This document shows, piece after piece, positions 6,707 through 47,143 of a stretch of 64,000 nt of DNA. Made by a program: the position numbers and the translations under genes. Positions within the stretch are counted from its first letter, which is position 1. Every line of letters begins with the position of its first letter. The stretch is taken from positions 1,479,704 through 1,543,703 of the forward strand of contig CP012158.1 of the NCBI GenBank assembly GCA_001189275.1. The letters are read 5' to 3'. The DNA is from Pyrobaculum sp. WP30. GTDB taxonomy: Archaea; Thermoproteota; Thermoprotei; Thermoproteales; Thermoproteaceae. Below the pieces are notes generated by a model, which ran no database searches, was not told the DNA's origin, and saw nothing but the letters and a program-made list of their open reading frames with translations.

Positions 6707-8008
6707 ATGACGTCCAAAACTCTATATCTAATAGGAATAGTTGTACTGCTAGCTATAGTTGGGATCTTGTTAACGACGACAAGCCAGACGCCCCAGGCTA
6801 CGCCCACAACACAGCCAACCACCACCGCAACGCCAACGCAGAAGGTGTTTAAGCTGGGCGCCCTCCTTCCGCTCACCGGAGGCTTCAGTAGCTACGCCAA
6901 GCTGGCGCAATGCGCTGCAAATCTCGCAATAGACGACCTCAACGCCGAGTATGCCAATAAGGGCTATAGATTTGAGCTGTACGTCGAAGACACGCAACTA
7001 GACCCCAACGTGGCGCTCCAGAAGCTACAGACACTATACGCAAAGGGGGTAAGGGCTGTACACGCCGGCTTGACGAGCAAAGAGGCCTCCGGCGAAAAGC
7101 CCTTCGCAGACCAGAACAAGGTGATCCTCTTCAGCGCCTGGTCCACCTCCTCCCTTCTGGCTATACCCGACGACTGGCTTTATAGAATCGTAGGCACAGA
7201 CGCCAAACAGATAAGAGCCATTGGCGCCATACTCAAAGAACTCGGTGTGAAAAACGTCGCGCTTATCTACAGGAAAGATACCTACGGAGAAGGCCTCTAC
7301 CTAGAGCTTCAGAAGGAAGCCGCCAACCGCGGCTTTAAGCTGGTGTCTGTCGCGTCGTATGACCCAGATCCGAAGGCCTTTCCGCAAGCCGCCCCGGAGG
7401 CTGTGAGGAAGATCTCCGGAGAAGTTAAAGACTTGGTGGGGCCCGACTTCGCAGTGGTGATTGTCTCCTTCGAAGACGACGGCTCTGTCGTGTTGAAGAC
7501 GATAGGTCAAGACCCAGTCCTCTCAAAGGCTAGGCTCATAGGCACCGAGGGGATGGCGTTCTCCCCAATCTTGCTACAGGAGGGAGGAGATGTAATGGCC
7601 AAGGGCAAGATAGTAGGCACGGCAAACTGGGCTCTGCCCACCACGCCGGAGTATCAAGAGTTCTACAAGAAGTTTAAGGCGAAGTGTGGAGCGGAGCCAA
7701 TAACCCCTGCCCCGCAGTCTTACGACATAATTAAGATGCTTGGAGAAATTATGGCCACCGTAGGCACAGACAGCGATCCAGACAAGCTACGCGCCGCGCT
7801 TGAGCAGTGGGGCAAAGAGGGACGCTACAAAGGAGCCACAGGCGTAGTGTTACTAGATCAAAACGGCGACAGAGCGAACCCCAACTTCGTGCTGTGGGGC
7901 GTCGCTATCAAGGACGGCAAACCGACATACATAGAAGTCGGCTACTACGACTACGACAAAGACAAGATAGAGCTCACCACAGAGGGCAAACAGTTCTTCT
8001 ACGGGTGA
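6707..8008 (+). CDS. livJ: branched-chain amino-acid-type ABC substrate-binding protein
   Basis: A 433-aa extracellular binding protein of the LivJ/Leu-Ile-Val receptor family. Residues 5-22 form a membrane anchor or signal segment (LYLIGIVVLLAIVGILL). A Thr/Pro/Gln-rich linker follows, as is common in archaeal anchored binding proteins, and then the type I periplasmic-binding fold starting KLGALLPLTGGFSSYAK. No lipobox cysteine is evident. A TATA box near 6679-6687 sets a leaderless start. The ligand could be an amino acid, amide or urea; the fold alone does not decide. Confidence 0.88.
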   Translation: MTSKTLYLIGIVVLLAIVGILLTTTSQTPQATPTTQPTTTATPTQKVFKLGALLPLTGGFSSYAKLAQCAANLAIDDLNAEYANKGYRFELYVEDTQLDPNVALQKLQTLYAKGVRAVHAGLTSKEASGEKPFADQNKVILFSAWSTSSLLAIPDDWLYRIVGTDAKQIRAIGAILKELGVKNVALIYRKDTYGEGLYLELQKEAANRGFKLVSVASYDPDPKAFPQAAPEAVRKISGEVKDLVGPDFAVVIVSFEDDGSVVLKTIGQDPVLSKARLIGTEGMAFSPILLQEGGDVMAKGKIVGTANWALPTTPEYQEFYKKFKAKCGAEPITPAPQSYDIIKMLGEIMATVGTDSDPDKLRAALEQWGKEGRYKGATGVVLLDQNGDRANPNFVLWGVAIKDGKPTYIEVGYYDYDKDKIELTTEGKQFFYG

Positions 8009-36719: not shown

Positions 36720-39700
36720 TCACCGCCTCGTCTTCTTTAGCCACTCCTCTATGGCGCCTGCCAGTTCCTTATAGCGCCTAAAGCCTTCCAGGTGCTTCCT
36801 GGTACACTGTATCATCATAGTGCCGTCGCTCCTCTGGTACACCCCTGGCTCCTCGCCCGTCAGTGCCTTTACCACGGCGGCGAGTCTCCTGGCATCGGCC
36901 ACGCTGGCGTAAGCGTAGGCCACGGCTACGTTGTTTCTGCCATGCCTGACATAGGTAATCGTGTATTCGCCCCTCACGCCGTTCACCTCCGCCGTTATGG
37001 TGAGCCTCAGCAACTTCCCCTCAATCTTGGCACCTCCGCCTGTTACTGTCACCACATACTTTTCGCCTTCCGCCCCCAACTTTCTGTTTTTCACCTCCAC
37101 CTCGGCCCCCCTAATGTCCGTAAGACTCAAGGAGTTCCACTTCATGCCCTCCTCCACGATCTTTAAGACCTTGTTGTAAACATTGTCGCCAACATCCCCT
37201 GCCCTCTTGAGTATGTGCGCTATGAAGCTCTTCGCAAGCTCCTTCTGCTCCCCCTCGCCGTGTGCCGACAGCCAGGCGGCGTAGGCCAAACCTTCCCTAA
37301 GGATGTACACGTAGCCTGTCCCGCCACCCTTCGGCGTCTTCGCCGAGAAGTGCCTGCCCTCCTCAAGCCCCATCTCCCCAAGCCTCTGCGTCTCCTGCTG
37401 TATGCTGTTGGGGTTGGGGGCGTAGCCGTCGCGGCCCTCCTTTGGCCACGTAACCGTGAAGTGGTGCCCCTCCTTGAGGCCCATCCGCTCAAGCTTCTGC
37501 TTCACCTGCGCTATGCTACCAGATTTGGTGGAGCGGAATCTGATAACGAACCTGCCTTTATTATCATATTTCAGTACGGTAAACCTCTGCCAGTCCTCCG
37601 TCAGTGTGAGACCCTCCTCCGGCTTTTCCACCTTTACTTGGGTCTCCTCCACGAATTTCTTAAACTTGGGACTTAAGTGCCCTCCGCCAGCCAACGGCGC
37701 AGAGTCTGCAAGGAGGCGCATGAACCTTGCCGCGTTCTCGCCGTAGGCCTCTATGCTGTAAACGCCGCTCTTCATGTATACCCGCATATCGAACTTCAGC
37801 TCGTTGGGCAAGAGTTGGTTGATCAGATGCAGTGTGGCGAGACGCAGAAGCGTAGCCCCTCCGCCCAGCTCCCCGCCGACGGCTAGCTCTACTCTCTTCG
37901 ACCCCACGGAGCCGTCTCCCGCAATTGCGGTTGCATACATCTCGCCGAAGATGAGCTTGGCCCTTTCTCTGTCGAACTCGCCCCTCAACGCCTTGTCTAG
38001 CATAATTAATTCCAGGGCTGGGGCGACGAACTTCCTCACCACCGCATCCCTGGCGCAGTCTCTAGCCAAGCAGTACATATTGCTTAGGACGAAACCCACG
38101 ATGTCCCAAACCTCCTTACTAGAGACGCCGACCTCTCTAGCTAGGTTTTCGATGCGCTTCTTCACCGTTTCTGCACGGCTCTCGGCGTGGCGGATAATCA
38201 GCTTGGCCAGCGTATCTGCGTATTCGCCGCCTATCCTCCTGCCGCTCAGCGCCTCCACCGCCTTCGCCAGCCTCTTGGCTCTCTCCTCGCGCCATCTGCT
38301 GTCGTCCACGCCCCTCTTCGCCTCGGCGAAGTGGACAAGGAGAGCCAGCTCGCCAAGCATCCTCCTCACGTGCCCCTCCCTCTCTGCGTCGCCCATCTTC
38401 TTGGGGCCTACCCAAGGCTTCAACTCGTCGGCCAGCTCCTCGACCCTCTTCAAGACCCAGCTCCAGTCTATGGCGTCCACCAGCTCCCGCCAGCTGTTGA
38501 CAGCGGGTCCTTCGGCCTCTCTAGAACCGTCTCCTTGTTTAGAGACGGGACCTAAGAGGGGCTTCAGCTCATCTCCCTCCTTGGCGATGATGTCGTCTAA
38601 GCGCTCCCTACGCCACTGCATTAGGACGTTGGGCTTTACGCCCTCCTTAGTGACGTTGGTCCTACCGCTAATAGACTCCGGCTTGCCGAAGAGGGCGATG
38701 TGCCAAGCCGCCTGCCAAAGATGGACGGTGATGCCCCCTATCCATTTTCCGGTGAACGACACGTCGGTGGCAAGCCACTCCAGCGCATGCTGTATCTTCT
38801 TAATCCCTGAGAGGTTTAGCGCCAACCTCTTCGCCTCCTCCACGAAGCGGTTCCGCTCCTCTTCGCTGAGCGTAAAGTAAGCCGTCATCTTTACTATCCA
38901 CAGCTCGCCGACGAAGGTCTCGACGCCGCCGTAGGTCCTAAATACACCGAATCCCATCCTGTCGCCCTTCTCGATGCGCCCCTTTTCGCCGACCTTATTG
39001 ACGCGTTTAAACTTGAGGTTCTCTTCGCTAATTCCGCTCAAAAGTTGCAGAAGCGCAGAAGCGGCCCTATCCTCCAAGTCCGCCGCCCTCCTGCGCGAGT
39101 GGGCCCTGTTGTAGGCGGTTGCAGGCGCCGACAACACCAAATCCGCCAGAGCCCCCTTGCCTGCAAGCAACATGGCGACGTGTCCGTATATCCCGCCTCT
39201 GGCGACTGAAAGAAGGGCAACGTAGGCCTTAGTCCCCATGCTAGCGTCTGAATACTTGCTCAGCTCTTTGCTCCTCGCCTCAGCCAGCTCCTCCGCCGTG
39301 CCCCGGTCCACCTCCAGGTAGGGTCTGAGCTTTTCGTATAGGTCGCGGTTACGCTCTGCATACAATGTCAACGCATTGTTCAACTCTCTCCTCACCTCCT
39401 CCGCCGCCTCCTCAAGTCTCTTCTGCGCCTCGCGGAACTTTTTGATCTCGCTAGCTGTTACCGCGAACTCCTGCTTCTCGACCAGGCCCCTTGCCCAGTC
39501 GTACCACCCGGCCCACTCCCTATAAGCCCTGGCGTTGTTGACCAGCGCTTTGTAGAGCACAAGCGTTACGACCACTGCGGCGTCTCTCTCCGCCCCGTTT
39601 CCCACGCGCAACAGCGCTTTCTTCAGCCTCGCGAGAGGTAGCGGCAAATCTTTCCTAGACTTGGCCAGATTTTGAAATGCCTCGTACGGCCTCTTCCCCC

Positions 39701-40229
39701 TCAGAGGAGCCTTAAGGATCTCGTCAACGACGTTCGCGTCTATCTTCCACTTCTCGTACCTCTCAGCCACCGCCCTAAACCTCTCAGCCGCCCACCCGCC
39801 GGTATCCACCAGCCCAGCCACAAACGGCGCGCCCACGGCGGCATGCGCAAGCTTCTCCATCTCCACAAGACCCCACATATTCAACGCAACCGACAGCGCA
39901 ACCACCCCAGCCGCCACAGCCGCCATCAAGAAGAGATATGCCTTGTGTTCATCTACCCAAGCCAACACCCGCGCCACCGCCTCCACAAATAACTCCACGA
40001 GGCGCTGAACCGTCACCTTCACCTGCTCAAATACTTCTTTAGCCGCCTCATACAGCGCCTTCGCCGCTTTCTGCAGGTACTGGACAGCCTTCTTGAACTG
40101 CCCCGCCTCGGCGAGGGCGACAGCCGAGGTGATGGAGGAAACAACGGCCTCTGAATACAGCCCGTGATACACGGAGTACAGCGCTGCCGAGAGGCCGGCT
40201 GAGGCGGCTTCTCTATGTCTACGCCACAC
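36720..40229 (-). CDS. paREP2b family protein
   Basis: A 1169-aa protein of the Pyrobaculum-specific paREP2b family, recognised by its C-terminal layout and its divergent pairing with a paREP2a gene. It has an N-terminal helical region, a membrane segment near residue 95 (LFLMAAVAAGVVALSVALNM), long charged helices, a segment ATAIAGDGSVGSKRV near residue 765, two related repeats (minus strand about 37425-37515 and 37310-37400: ERMGLKEGHHFTV and GEMGLEEGRHFSA) and the tail AIEEWLKKTRR. Family members are often broken; this one is uninterrupted. Function is unknown. A TATA-like box lies only 15 bp before the GTG, so the start is uncertain. Confidence 0.85.
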   Translation of the reverse strand: MWRRHREAASAGLSAALYSVYHGLYSEAVVSSITSAVALAEAGQFKKAVQYLQKAAKALYEAAKEVFEQVKVTVQRLVELFVEAVARVLAWVDEHKAYLFLMAAVAAGVVALSVALNMWGLVEMEKLAHAAVGAPFVAGLVDTGGWAAERFRAVAERYEKWKIDANVVDEILKAPLRGKRPYEAFQNLAKSRKDLPLPLARLKKALLRVGNGAERDAAVVVTLVLYKALVNNARAYREWAGWYDWARGLVEKQEFAVTASEIKKFREAQKRLEEAAEEVRRELNNALTLYAERNRDLYEKLRPYLEVDRGTAEELAEARSKELSKYSDASMGTKAYVALLSVARGGIYGHVAMLLAGKGALADLVLSAPATAYNRAHSRRRAADLEDRAASALLQLLSGISEENLKFKRVNKVGEKGRIEKGDRMGFGVFRTYGGVETFVGELWIVKMTAYFTLSEEERNRFVEEAKRLALNLSGIKKIQHALEWLATDVSFTGKWIGGITVHLWQAAWHIALFGKPESISGRTNVTKEGVKPNVLMQWRRERLDDIIAKEGDELKPLLGPVSKQGDGSREAEGPAVNSWRELVDAIDWSWVLKRVEELADELKPWVGPKKMGDAEREGHVRRMLGELALLVHFAEAKRGVDDSRWREERAKRLAKAVEALSGRRIGGEYADTLAKLIIRHAESRAETVKKRIENLAREVGVSSKEVWDIVGFVLSNMYCLARDCARDAVVRKFVAPALELIMLDKALRGEFDRERAKLIFGEMYATAIAGDGSVGSKRVELAVGGELGGGATLLRLATLHLINQLLPNELKFDMRVYMKSGVYSIEAYGENAARFMRLLADSAPLAGGGHLSPKFKKFVEETQVKVEKPEEGLTLTEDWQRFTVLKYDNKGRFVIRFRSTKSGSIAQVKQKLERMGLKEGHHFTVTWPKEGRDGYAPNPNSIQQETQRLGEMGLEEGRHFSAKTPKGGGTGYVYILREGLAYAAWLSAHGEGEQKELAKSFIAHILKRAGDVGDNVYNKVLKIVEEGMKWNSLSLTDIRGAEVEVKNRKLGAEGEKYVVTVTGGGAKIEGKLLRLTITAEVNGVRGEYTITYVRHGRNNVAVAYAYASVADARRLAAVVKALTGEEPGVYQRSDGTMMIQCTRKHLEGFRRYKELAGAIEEWLKKTRR

Positions 40230-40303: not shown

Positions 40304-40726
40304 ATGAAAGAGCCGCCTAAGCCTCCGCCCGACCCTGCGGAGGAGCTTCTAAAGGAGTGTCCGGAGCTGAGCGCCTTCGGCGTAGAGTGGGTTAGGAAGT
40401 GGCTGGATCTTAGGGAGAGGTTAATCGAAATCGCCAAGGTTATGCGTAAATTCCCGTGGATGGTTGATGCGGTGAGGCAGAGACCGGTGGATATCCTCCA
40501 CCCCTACACGGTGGAGGTGTATGTGGCGGTGGACGGATCGGAGGCGTGTATCTCGCTGAACCCGCCGAAGGCCTTCTGCGCCCAAAACGGAGCGGCGAAG
40601 GGGGTGCGGCTGGAGCTGGCGTTCAGCCGGTACGAGACATACGAGGATAAGATGAGGGAGGTGTACAGACCCAAGGGGTTACTGGCATTCGCCGTAGCGG
40701 CAAGGGAATACGTGAGGATACTCTAA
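40304..40726 (+). CDS. paREP2a family protein
   Basis: A 140-aa protein of the paREP2a family, divergent from paREP2b with a 74-bp gap. It has a proline-rich start (EPPKPPPDPAEELLK), then LIEIAKVMRKFPWMVDAVRQ, VEVYVAVDGSEACISLNPPK and the end REYVRIL. A second, 5'-truncated copy lies at 46705. Function unknown; constant pairing with paREP2b suggests they act or move together. Confidence 0.85.
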   Translation: MKEPPKPPPDPAEELLKECPELSAFGVEWVRKWLDLRERLIEIAKVMRKFPWMVDAVRQRPVDILHPYTVEVYVAVDGSEACISLNPPKAFCAQNGAAKGVRLELAFSRYETYEDKMREVYRPKGLLAFAVAAREYVRIL

Positions 40727-46505: not shown

Positions 46506-46592
46506 TGGCGGGCCCGGTGGGATTCGTAGGCCGGCTCTCGCCGCGAACCCACGACCTACGGGTTAAGAGCCTCGGTACAGCGGTCCGCTGGG
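46506..46592 (-). tRNA. tRNA-Lys(CTT), 3' half, with T-loop intron and leader
   Basis: The exon 46570-46509 reads G-CTCTTAA-CCCGT (anticodon CTT at 46567-46565), then AGGTC, T-stem GTGGG, a T-loop interrupted by 19 nt (about 46543-46525) and CCCAC, then acceptor CGGGCCC, G and an encoded CCA (46508-46506). No acceptor, D arm or 5' anticodon stem precedes it. Instead there is a leader (46592-46571) whose first 15 bases are complementary to the trailer of the 5' half at 47091-47143. Its own TATA box is at 46612-46620. Confidence 0.88.
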
Positions 46593-46611
46593 CGTATCTT
46601 TGTTTTTGTGT

Positions 46612-46620
46612 GTTTTTAAG
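46612..46620 (-). promoter_or_regulatory. TATA box of the tRNA-Lys 3' half
   Basis: CTTAAAAAC on the minus strand lies about 25 bp before the start of the leader (about 46592). It allows independent transcription of the 3' half. Confidence 0.6.
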
Positions 46621-46704
46621 TTTTTGTTGAGTGTTTTGGGGGTGTTGGGGTTTTGCGTGAGTTTTTGGAGCAGTTGATGTGTTATAGGGCTTGGGCACCT
46701 CATG

Positions 46705-47020
46705 CGGGGAGAGGTTAATCGAAATCGCCAAGGTTATGCGGAGATTCCCGTGGATGGTTGATGCGGTGAGGCAGAGGCCCATAAGCATCTTCCACCCCTA
46801 CATGGTGGAGGTGTATGTGGCGGTGGACGGGTCGGAGGCGTGCCTCTCCCTCACCTCGTCGAAGACGTATTGCGCCCAAAACGGCTCGGTTAGGGAGGTA
46901 AAGCTGGAGCTGGAGTTTAAGCGATATGAAGTATACGAAAACAAGATTAGAGAGGTGTACCGCCCCAAGGGACTGCTGGCGTTCACCGCGGCGGCGAGAG
47001 AATACGTGAGGATGCTCTAG
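46705..47020 (+). pseudogene. 5'-truncated paREP2a copy
   Basis: From 46705 the sequence is identical to 40417-40448 of the intact paREP2a for 32 bp, then clearly homologous to its end (RFPWMVDAVRQRPISIFHPY; VEVYVAVDGSEACLSL; AAREYVRML). The first ~38 residues of the family are missing; upstream is GT-rich sequence and the promoter of the tRNA-Lys 3' half. It runs antisense between the two halves of tRNA-Lys. The frame is open from an ATG at 46691, so a shortened protein is possible. Confidence 0.8.
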
Positions 47021-47025
47021 CCCTC

Positions 47026-47037
47026 GGGGGGGGGGGG
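47026..47037 (+). repeat. G12 homopolymer tract
   Basis: Twelve consecutive G residues follow directly on the stop of the truncated paREP2a copy. Long G tracts of this kind are slippage-prone. Confidence 0.95.
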
Positions 47038-47083
47038 TCAGCGTCTCGTGTGGGCTATGTAAGAGCTGGAGATGAGATGTGTG

Positions 47084-47089
47084 AAAAAA
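47084..47089 (-). terminator. T6 terminator after the tRNA-Lys 5' half
   Basis: On the minus strand GTTTTTTC follows immediately on the trailer of the 5' tRNA half. Oligo-T tracts are efficient archaeal terminators, so the 5' half transcript probably ends here and does not continue into the 3' half. Confidence 0.6.
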
Positions 47090-47090
47090 C

Positions 47091-47143
47091 GGGCCCAGCG
47101 GACCCGCTCCTCCGCCGCTCTAACCAGGCTGAGCTACGGGCCC
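47091..47143 (-). tRNA. tRNA-Lys(CTT), 5' half with trailer
   Basis: The exon 47143-47112 reads GGGCCCG-TA-GCTC-AGCCTGGTTA-GAGC-G-GCGG, a complete acceptor strand, D arm and four bases of the anticodon stem for tRNA-Lys. It then departs into a trailer (47111-47091) ending GGGCCCG. The trailer segment AGCGGGTCCGCTGGGC pairs with GCCCAGCGGACCGCT of the 3' half with one bulged G. Joined after position 30 the halves give a 75-nt tRNA-Lys(CTT) with stem GCGGG/CCCGT. Confidence 0.88.

Follow-up and report, generated by a model that had tools for sequence, protein, structure and literature searches.

The gene for tRNA-Lys(CUU) in Pyrobaculum sp. WP30 lies in two pieces, and we consider it very probable that it is a functional split gene, divided by a mobile element of a repeat family at a 30/31 intron site. 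The splitting of tRNA genes in this genome is well supported. We infer two-transcript expression followed by trans-splicing and, from the copies of the element, its mobility and mode of movement. The window analyzed here is a stretch of 64,000 nucleotides, taken from a genome (G000) that consists of one contig of 1,993,257 bases and is 99.84% complete.

A preliminary description of the window had placed two tRNA-Lys halves on the same strand and proposed that, joined after position 30, they give the full tRNA. Both halves can be read directly (Table 1): they lie on the − strand with a gap of 541 nt and a junction at 30/31, and the joined exons form a complete tRNA-Lys(CUU) sequence. The 5′ exon agrees with that of its relatives save for the length of the D-loop. 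The 3′ half holds a T-loop intron of ~19 nt (~46543-46525), and its encoded CCA ends at 46506. A promoter for each half, a leader before the 3′ half and a T6 stop signal after the trailer, all claimed in the same description, are present as well. The 5′-half promoter motif AAATTTTTAAAA lies 34 nt from the mature 5′ end, and the region of the 3′-half promoter AAACTTAAAAAC is homologous to the last codons of the large ORF of the element described below. Neither ARAGORN nor Rfam called tRNA-Lys(CUU) in the window, as expected for a split gene. Both programs also miss a tRNA-Val(GAC) with introns that lies directly downstream (window 46436-46318, −). Between the T6 terminator and the repeat-family remnant there is a run of ~13 C (window 47040-47026), possibly a site of length variation or a sequencing error.

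Table 1. Features of the split tRNA-Lys(CUU) locus (window coordinates) and positions of the other split tRNA genes (genome coordinates).
Feature	Location	Strand	Basis or remark
Promoter of 5′ half, TFB/TATA motif AAATTTTTAAAA	47166..47177	−	14.3 bits
tRNA-Lys(CUU) 5′ half, positions 1-30, GGGCCCGTAGCTCAGCCTGGTTAGAGCGGCGG	47112..47143	−	Sequence and relatives
3′ trailer AGGAGCGGGTCCGCTGGGCCCG	47090..47111	−	Leader pairing and covariation across five loci
T6 terminator of 5′ half	47084..47089	−	Sequence; T5/T6 in the same place in 5/5 loci
Repeat-family ORF remnant, 109 aa, N-terminally truncated	46691..47020	+	77% identity to 140-aa ORF
Promoter motif of 3′ half AAACTTAAAAAC	46612..46623	−	17.2 bits; 53 nt before exon 2
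5′ leader of 3′ half	46571..46592	−	Promoter spacing; complementary to trailer
tRNA-Lys(CUU) 3′ half from position 31, begins GCTCTTAACCCGTAGG	46506..46570	−	Exon parts 100% identical to relatives
Arg(CCG) split gene	G000:C1, 5′ half from ~1562166, 3′ half from ~1561400		Insert 735 nt
Asn(GUU) split gene	G000:C1, 866744 / 862958		Insert 3,754 nt
Trp(CCA) split gene	G000:C1, 1556310 / 1555340		Insert 939 nt
Thr(GGU) split gene	G000:C1, ~1603021 / ~1602240		Insert 749 nt

The pairing of trailer and leader noticed earlier is borne out by a duplex energy of −33.5 kcal/mol and by covariation across five loci. At the Lys junction, the bulge-helix-bulge is relaxed and near-canonical: a central helix of positions 25-28 with leader positions −6 to −3 forms three of its four base pairs, and a G-G mismatch is kept in the inner helix. 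This corrects the remark that there is no textbook bulge-helix-bulge. A 3x3 internal loop at the junction, put forward at that stage, was dropped for the 25-28/−6 to −3 helix, which covaries.

Four further tRNAs of the same genome are split at 30/31: Arg(CCG), Asn(GUU), Trp(CCA) and Thr(GGU). In all five loci the halves stand in order on one strand and flank a repeat-family ORF, the trailer is followed by T5 or T6, and trailers, 3′-half promoters and leaders are homologous from locus to locus. Because of this homology, the shared promoters and terminators do not count as five independent observations. Two side observations concern the tRNA complement of this genome. In Arg(GCG), Arg(CCG) and Arg(UCG) (L040, L042, L043), position 1 seems to be T or C and faces C72, an apparent mismatch of the first pair in each. 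A tRNA-Glu 3′ fragment at G000:C1 ~570520 (L307 ~2860, −) lies 2.4 kb from an intact tRNA-Glu and is possibly the attachment site of an integrated element.

The repeat-family ORF (~140 aa) has ~25 DNA copies in the genome. Its remnant between the Lys halves, on the opposite strand, is 77% identical to a 140-aa ORF at window 40304-40726 (+), which forms a free pair of repeat ORFs with 36720-40229 (−). The preliminary description had named the intervening copy paREP2a; it is a repeat-family ORF, but the name finds no confirmation, as neither the element's ORFs nor the window's free copy matched PaRep2a or PaRep2b in Pfam. The Asn insert holds an intact ORF of 1,043 aa on the tRNA strand. The 3′-half promoter sits in the last codons of this ORF (..KTLNEKLKNTQKQ..), whose frame stays open across the leader and ends at a stop within the tRNA. 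At the other four loci, the C-terminal stretch alone is kept of the large ORF.

The N-terminal ~160 residues of the 1,043-aa ORF are common to the free repeat copies, and residues ~360-770 resemble stand-alone ORFs of ~440-510 aa in other Pyrobaculum, with invariant LGWxASDE and LGDG motifs throughout this family. Six such stand-alone ORFs (L238, L239, L242, L240, L245, L252) each converge on a tRNA gene and end 7-80 nt from its 3′ end; they perhaps make up a tRNA-associated mobile gene family. One stand-alone relative matched PaRep2b at E 0.002, below the cut-off, and one of 17 family members matched LAGLIDADG_3 (E 7e-4). The LGWxASDE/LGDG protein had no match in the PDB, the element ORF matched no integrase family, and viral contigs held no relative of the ORF domain. 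An AlphaFold2 model built from two sequences was unusable (pLDDT 42). Restored copies of Lys, Trp or Asn, as sought for an integrated element of the SSV or pNOB8 type, were not found.

When 45 genomes of the order were searched, the C-terminus of the large ORF appeared in the source genome and in Thermoproteus sp. CP80, at seven places, all directly upstream of a tRNA 3′ half; one additional weak match, in G006, is of another kind. Close homologues of the 1,043-aa ORF (76-78%) were found in CP80 only, on two contigs. Both ORFs are long and open and run into tRNA 3′ halves, one of Thr(GGU), as in Pyrobaculum, the other probably of Tyr(GUA). CP80 also has the matching 5′ half of Thr, followed by trailer and T6 (L254), and DNA homology between the Thr genes of the two organisms covers tRNA and insert and stops at the tRNA ends. 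Copies of the ORF are about equally distant within CP80 and between the genera (dS 0.36-0.38, dN/dS ~0.3), which suggests recent horizontal movement of the element and selection on its protein. The Tyr(GUA)-like 3′ half (L236:2690-2820) seems to begin at position 22, not 31, and is interrupted by an intron at 39/40; no 5′ half was found for it. A trailer match in G008:C91 was rejected, as it resembles coding sequence rather than tRNA.

Relatives preserve the corresponding sites in other states. The syntenic Lys site, which adjoins TrpRS, has no 30/31 intron in G005 and G002 and a 23-nt one in G004. The Trp gene of G009, whose upstream neighbor matches, has no 30/31 intron either. The short introns that relatives have at 30/31 in Asn and Arg start AGGA or TGGA and have CCGA-like ends, and the ends of the split genes are alike. 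The empty and short-intron sites, together with the shared intron ends, are consistent with an element that entered a short intron and then spread.

A second lineage, the Pyrobaculum draft genome G007, holds split genes of its own. The halves of its tRNA-Lys(UUU) lie on opposite strands (G007:C81:550-750, L300) and diverge from a palindromic promoter region, in which a long perfect palindrome, AGCTTTTCTCCTGGCTGGCGCGCGCCAGCCAGGAGAAAAGCT, adjoins both promoters; trailer and leader form a duplex of −37.2 kcal/mol. Since the halves are on opposite strands, the interruption cannot be a cis intron and trans-splicing is required, which provides an independent precedent for a trans-split tRNA in the genus. 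The halves of Arg(UCU) are on different contigs (5′, G007:C89:28993-28961, −; 3′, G007:C13 ~7310-7391, +), with a trailer/leader duplex of −36.2 kcal/mol. The same draft has Asn-like (G007:C20, −) and Trp-like (G007:C46:7391-7361, −) 5′ halves that have no adjacent 3′ half and whose partners were not found. In its tRNA-Lys(CUU) (G007:C31:1-470, −), the gap at 30/31 measures ~205 nt and contains a TATA-like motif, with an arm pairing of −42 kcal/mol; the gene could be either split or interrupted by a long intron.

Because the 30/31 split tRNAs of G007 carry no element, and many short 30/31 introns with similar ends exist in the genus, it could be argued that the genes were split and working in trans before the repeat elements, which did not cause the split, came in. 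We regard this order of events as unlikely. All five inserts have one common structure, it is the end of the element's ORF that forms the 3′-half promoter, and the cis 30/31 introns of the same genome lack a promoter of this type.

A 12-base promoter motif model was learned from 19 uninterrupted (cis) tRNA genes of the genome, which score 10.4-17.2 bits. The five 3′-half promoters score 16.1-17.2 bits, 53-54 nt before exon 2, and that of Lys equals the best of the 19 cis promoters; in the background, motifs of 12 bits or more occur at 0.10 per kb per strand. The usual 32-nt spacing from the promoter would place the start ~21 nt before exon 2, where complementarity begins; the Lys 3′-half transcript is predicted to start at ~46591. 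By this sequence motif, each half has a putative promoter of its own. The motif keeps 11-12 of its 12 bases, while the remains of ORFs in other parts of the inserts are broken by stops. The 3′-half promoters share descent, but their retention where the ORF remnants have decayed suggests that it is not simply that.

These signals weigh against a reading in which the tRNAs contain giant cis introns, that is, the genes are transcribed whole and an intron of 541-3,754 nt is excised by the same bulge-helix-bulge. The order of the halves on one strand in 5/5 loci would suit it, and trailer and leader can pair in cis within one long transcript. However, such a transcript would run through T5-T6 right after each trailer and contain a top-strength tRNA promoter before each 3′ exon and, in Asn, the 1,043-aa ORF. 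Archaeal tRNA introns are short, and one of the rare cases longer than 100 nt, from Aeropyrum, turned out to be a split gene (PMC3218864). With trans-splicing required for Lys(UUU) of G007 as well, we hold giant introns to be improbable, slightly more so than a late arrival of the elements.

The weightiest arguments for splitting are the covariation and the failure to find other copies. The pairing model consists of the central helix 25-28/−6 to −3, bulges at 29-30-i1 and at −2, −1 and 31, and the trailer/leader stem; the covariation set comprises six sequences, two of them the Thr genes of two species, with arms arranged by hand with a linker before alignment. Under this model of junction and arms, 94% of cells pair, and 8 pairs are changed on both sides, a number that 0 of 500 shuffles reached. 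When the partner was slid by 1-3 columns as a control, pairing fell to 34-52%. One of the 8 two-sided changes lies within the bulge-helix-bulge (G27-C to A27-U in Thr). The central helix has 4/4 bp in Arg, Asn and Thr and 3/4 in Lys, and the outer helix is weak (72% of cells paired over all loci). In each row and column the cognate trailer/leader duplex has the highest stability, and of 120 assignments the cognate one is the best.

The tRNA inventory comprises BLAST searches and selected stretches of the genome; a D-arm pattern search was uninformative (921 forward and 846 reverse matches). The search for second copies took in Lys, Trp and Asn. BLAST of the joined tRNA against its own genome found no second Lys(CUU), the other matches listed being Lys(UUU), Arg, Cys and other tRNAs, so that the intact copy that would have spoken against a split gene did not appear. 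No second Trp or Asn gene was found by genome BLAST either: joined-tRNA queries gave full-identity, tRNA-covering matches only at the halves. To our knowledge, Trp and Asn are each read by a single tRNA species in archaea. With no other copy found, the split Trp and Asn genes must therefore work, if the assembly is right. That mobile elements destroyed these genes and left the halves as relics is very improbable, even with the repeat-family ORFs between the halves mostly decayed, given that no other copy of the indispensable tRNA-Trp or tRNA-Asn was found, the arms covary, the exons give complete tRNA sequences and CP80 has the same split Thr gene. The preference of the preliminary description for a split gene over a giant cis intron or a dead gene is strengthened by the four further split genes and the compensatory arm changes.

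If the Lys gene was split by the element, a repeat-family mobile element would have settled in a small 30/31 intron site, giving the 5′ exon a trailer that ends in a T-run and the 3′ exon a promoter, from the last codons of its large ORF, and a leader. Two short Lys transcripts, one per promoter, would pair by trailer and leader. Cleavage of the bulge-helix-bulge at 30/31 would fall to the archaeal splicing endonuclease, stated to be heterotetrameric in crenarchaea (PMC3218864), and joining of the halves to a ligase, with the T-loop intron removed in cis. The same kind of element may have split five tRNA genes here and one or more in Thermoproteus sp. CP80; most copies would later have decayed to the ends that the tRNA needs. 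It is tempting to speculate that the element spreads specifically into tRNA genes at 30/31, survives by leaving a working trans tRNA and may home to GAGCGRCGG; we give this proposal an even chance. The case for homing to intact GAGCGGCGG tRNA sites by a LAGLIDADG-like protein is weak.

Were this proposal true, the element would actively generate split tRNA genes and could be transferred. Whether split tRNAs are relics of early tRNAs or late products of mobile DNA is debated. The present case retains intermediates: in relatives the sites are empty or hold short introns, the element in tRNA-Asn is nearly full and those in four other genes have decayed, and in a second lineage the halves are fully separated. 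This makes a late, element-driven origin directly testable. A question of fidelity also arises, in that five paralogous pairs of halves must each find the right partner in one cell.

The preliminary description knew of no split tRNA in Pyrobaculum, in agreement with Chan 2011 (PMC3218864), who reported a single split gene for each Desulfurococcales genome but none for five species of Pyrobaculum; we found no later report for the genus in the literature outside subscription papers. The split tRNA-Lys(CUU) of Nanoarchaeum equitans, Staphylothermus marinus and S. hellenicus (PMC3218864) is the same tRNA, ligated at the same site 30/31, and likewise has GC-rich pairing arms, a promoter per half and a bulge-helix-bulge. 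However, the halves in Nanoarchaeum and Staphylothermus are separated by ~4.5 kb or more and do not have an intervening element in common. A known split tRNA with adjacent halves resembles the Pyrobaculum loci in having both on one strand and a strong promoter inside an apparent long intron, but it is a single gene, split at 37/38 across a short gap, with no repeat element identified inside.

Caldivirga maquilingensis likewise has several split tRNAs, including tri-split ones, in one Thermoproteales genome (Fujishima 2009, cited in PMC4033280), though as described in that citing account no mobile element lies between the halves. Transposition of tRNA introns in Thermoproteales (Fujishima 2010, cited in PMC4033280) similarly leaves like introns in different tRNA genes; these, as the citing account presents them, are short cis introns, whereas the spreading unit in Pyrobaculum splits the gene. 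For the heterogeneity of tRNA-Thr(GGU) in Caldiarchaeum (PMC3293823), a mobile element has also been proposed to explain how introns were gained and the tRNA fragmented. That element is of the integrase type and leaves an intact gene and a fragment, whereas the one in Pyrobaculum sits between two halves that are both needed and provides them with a promoter and a terminator.
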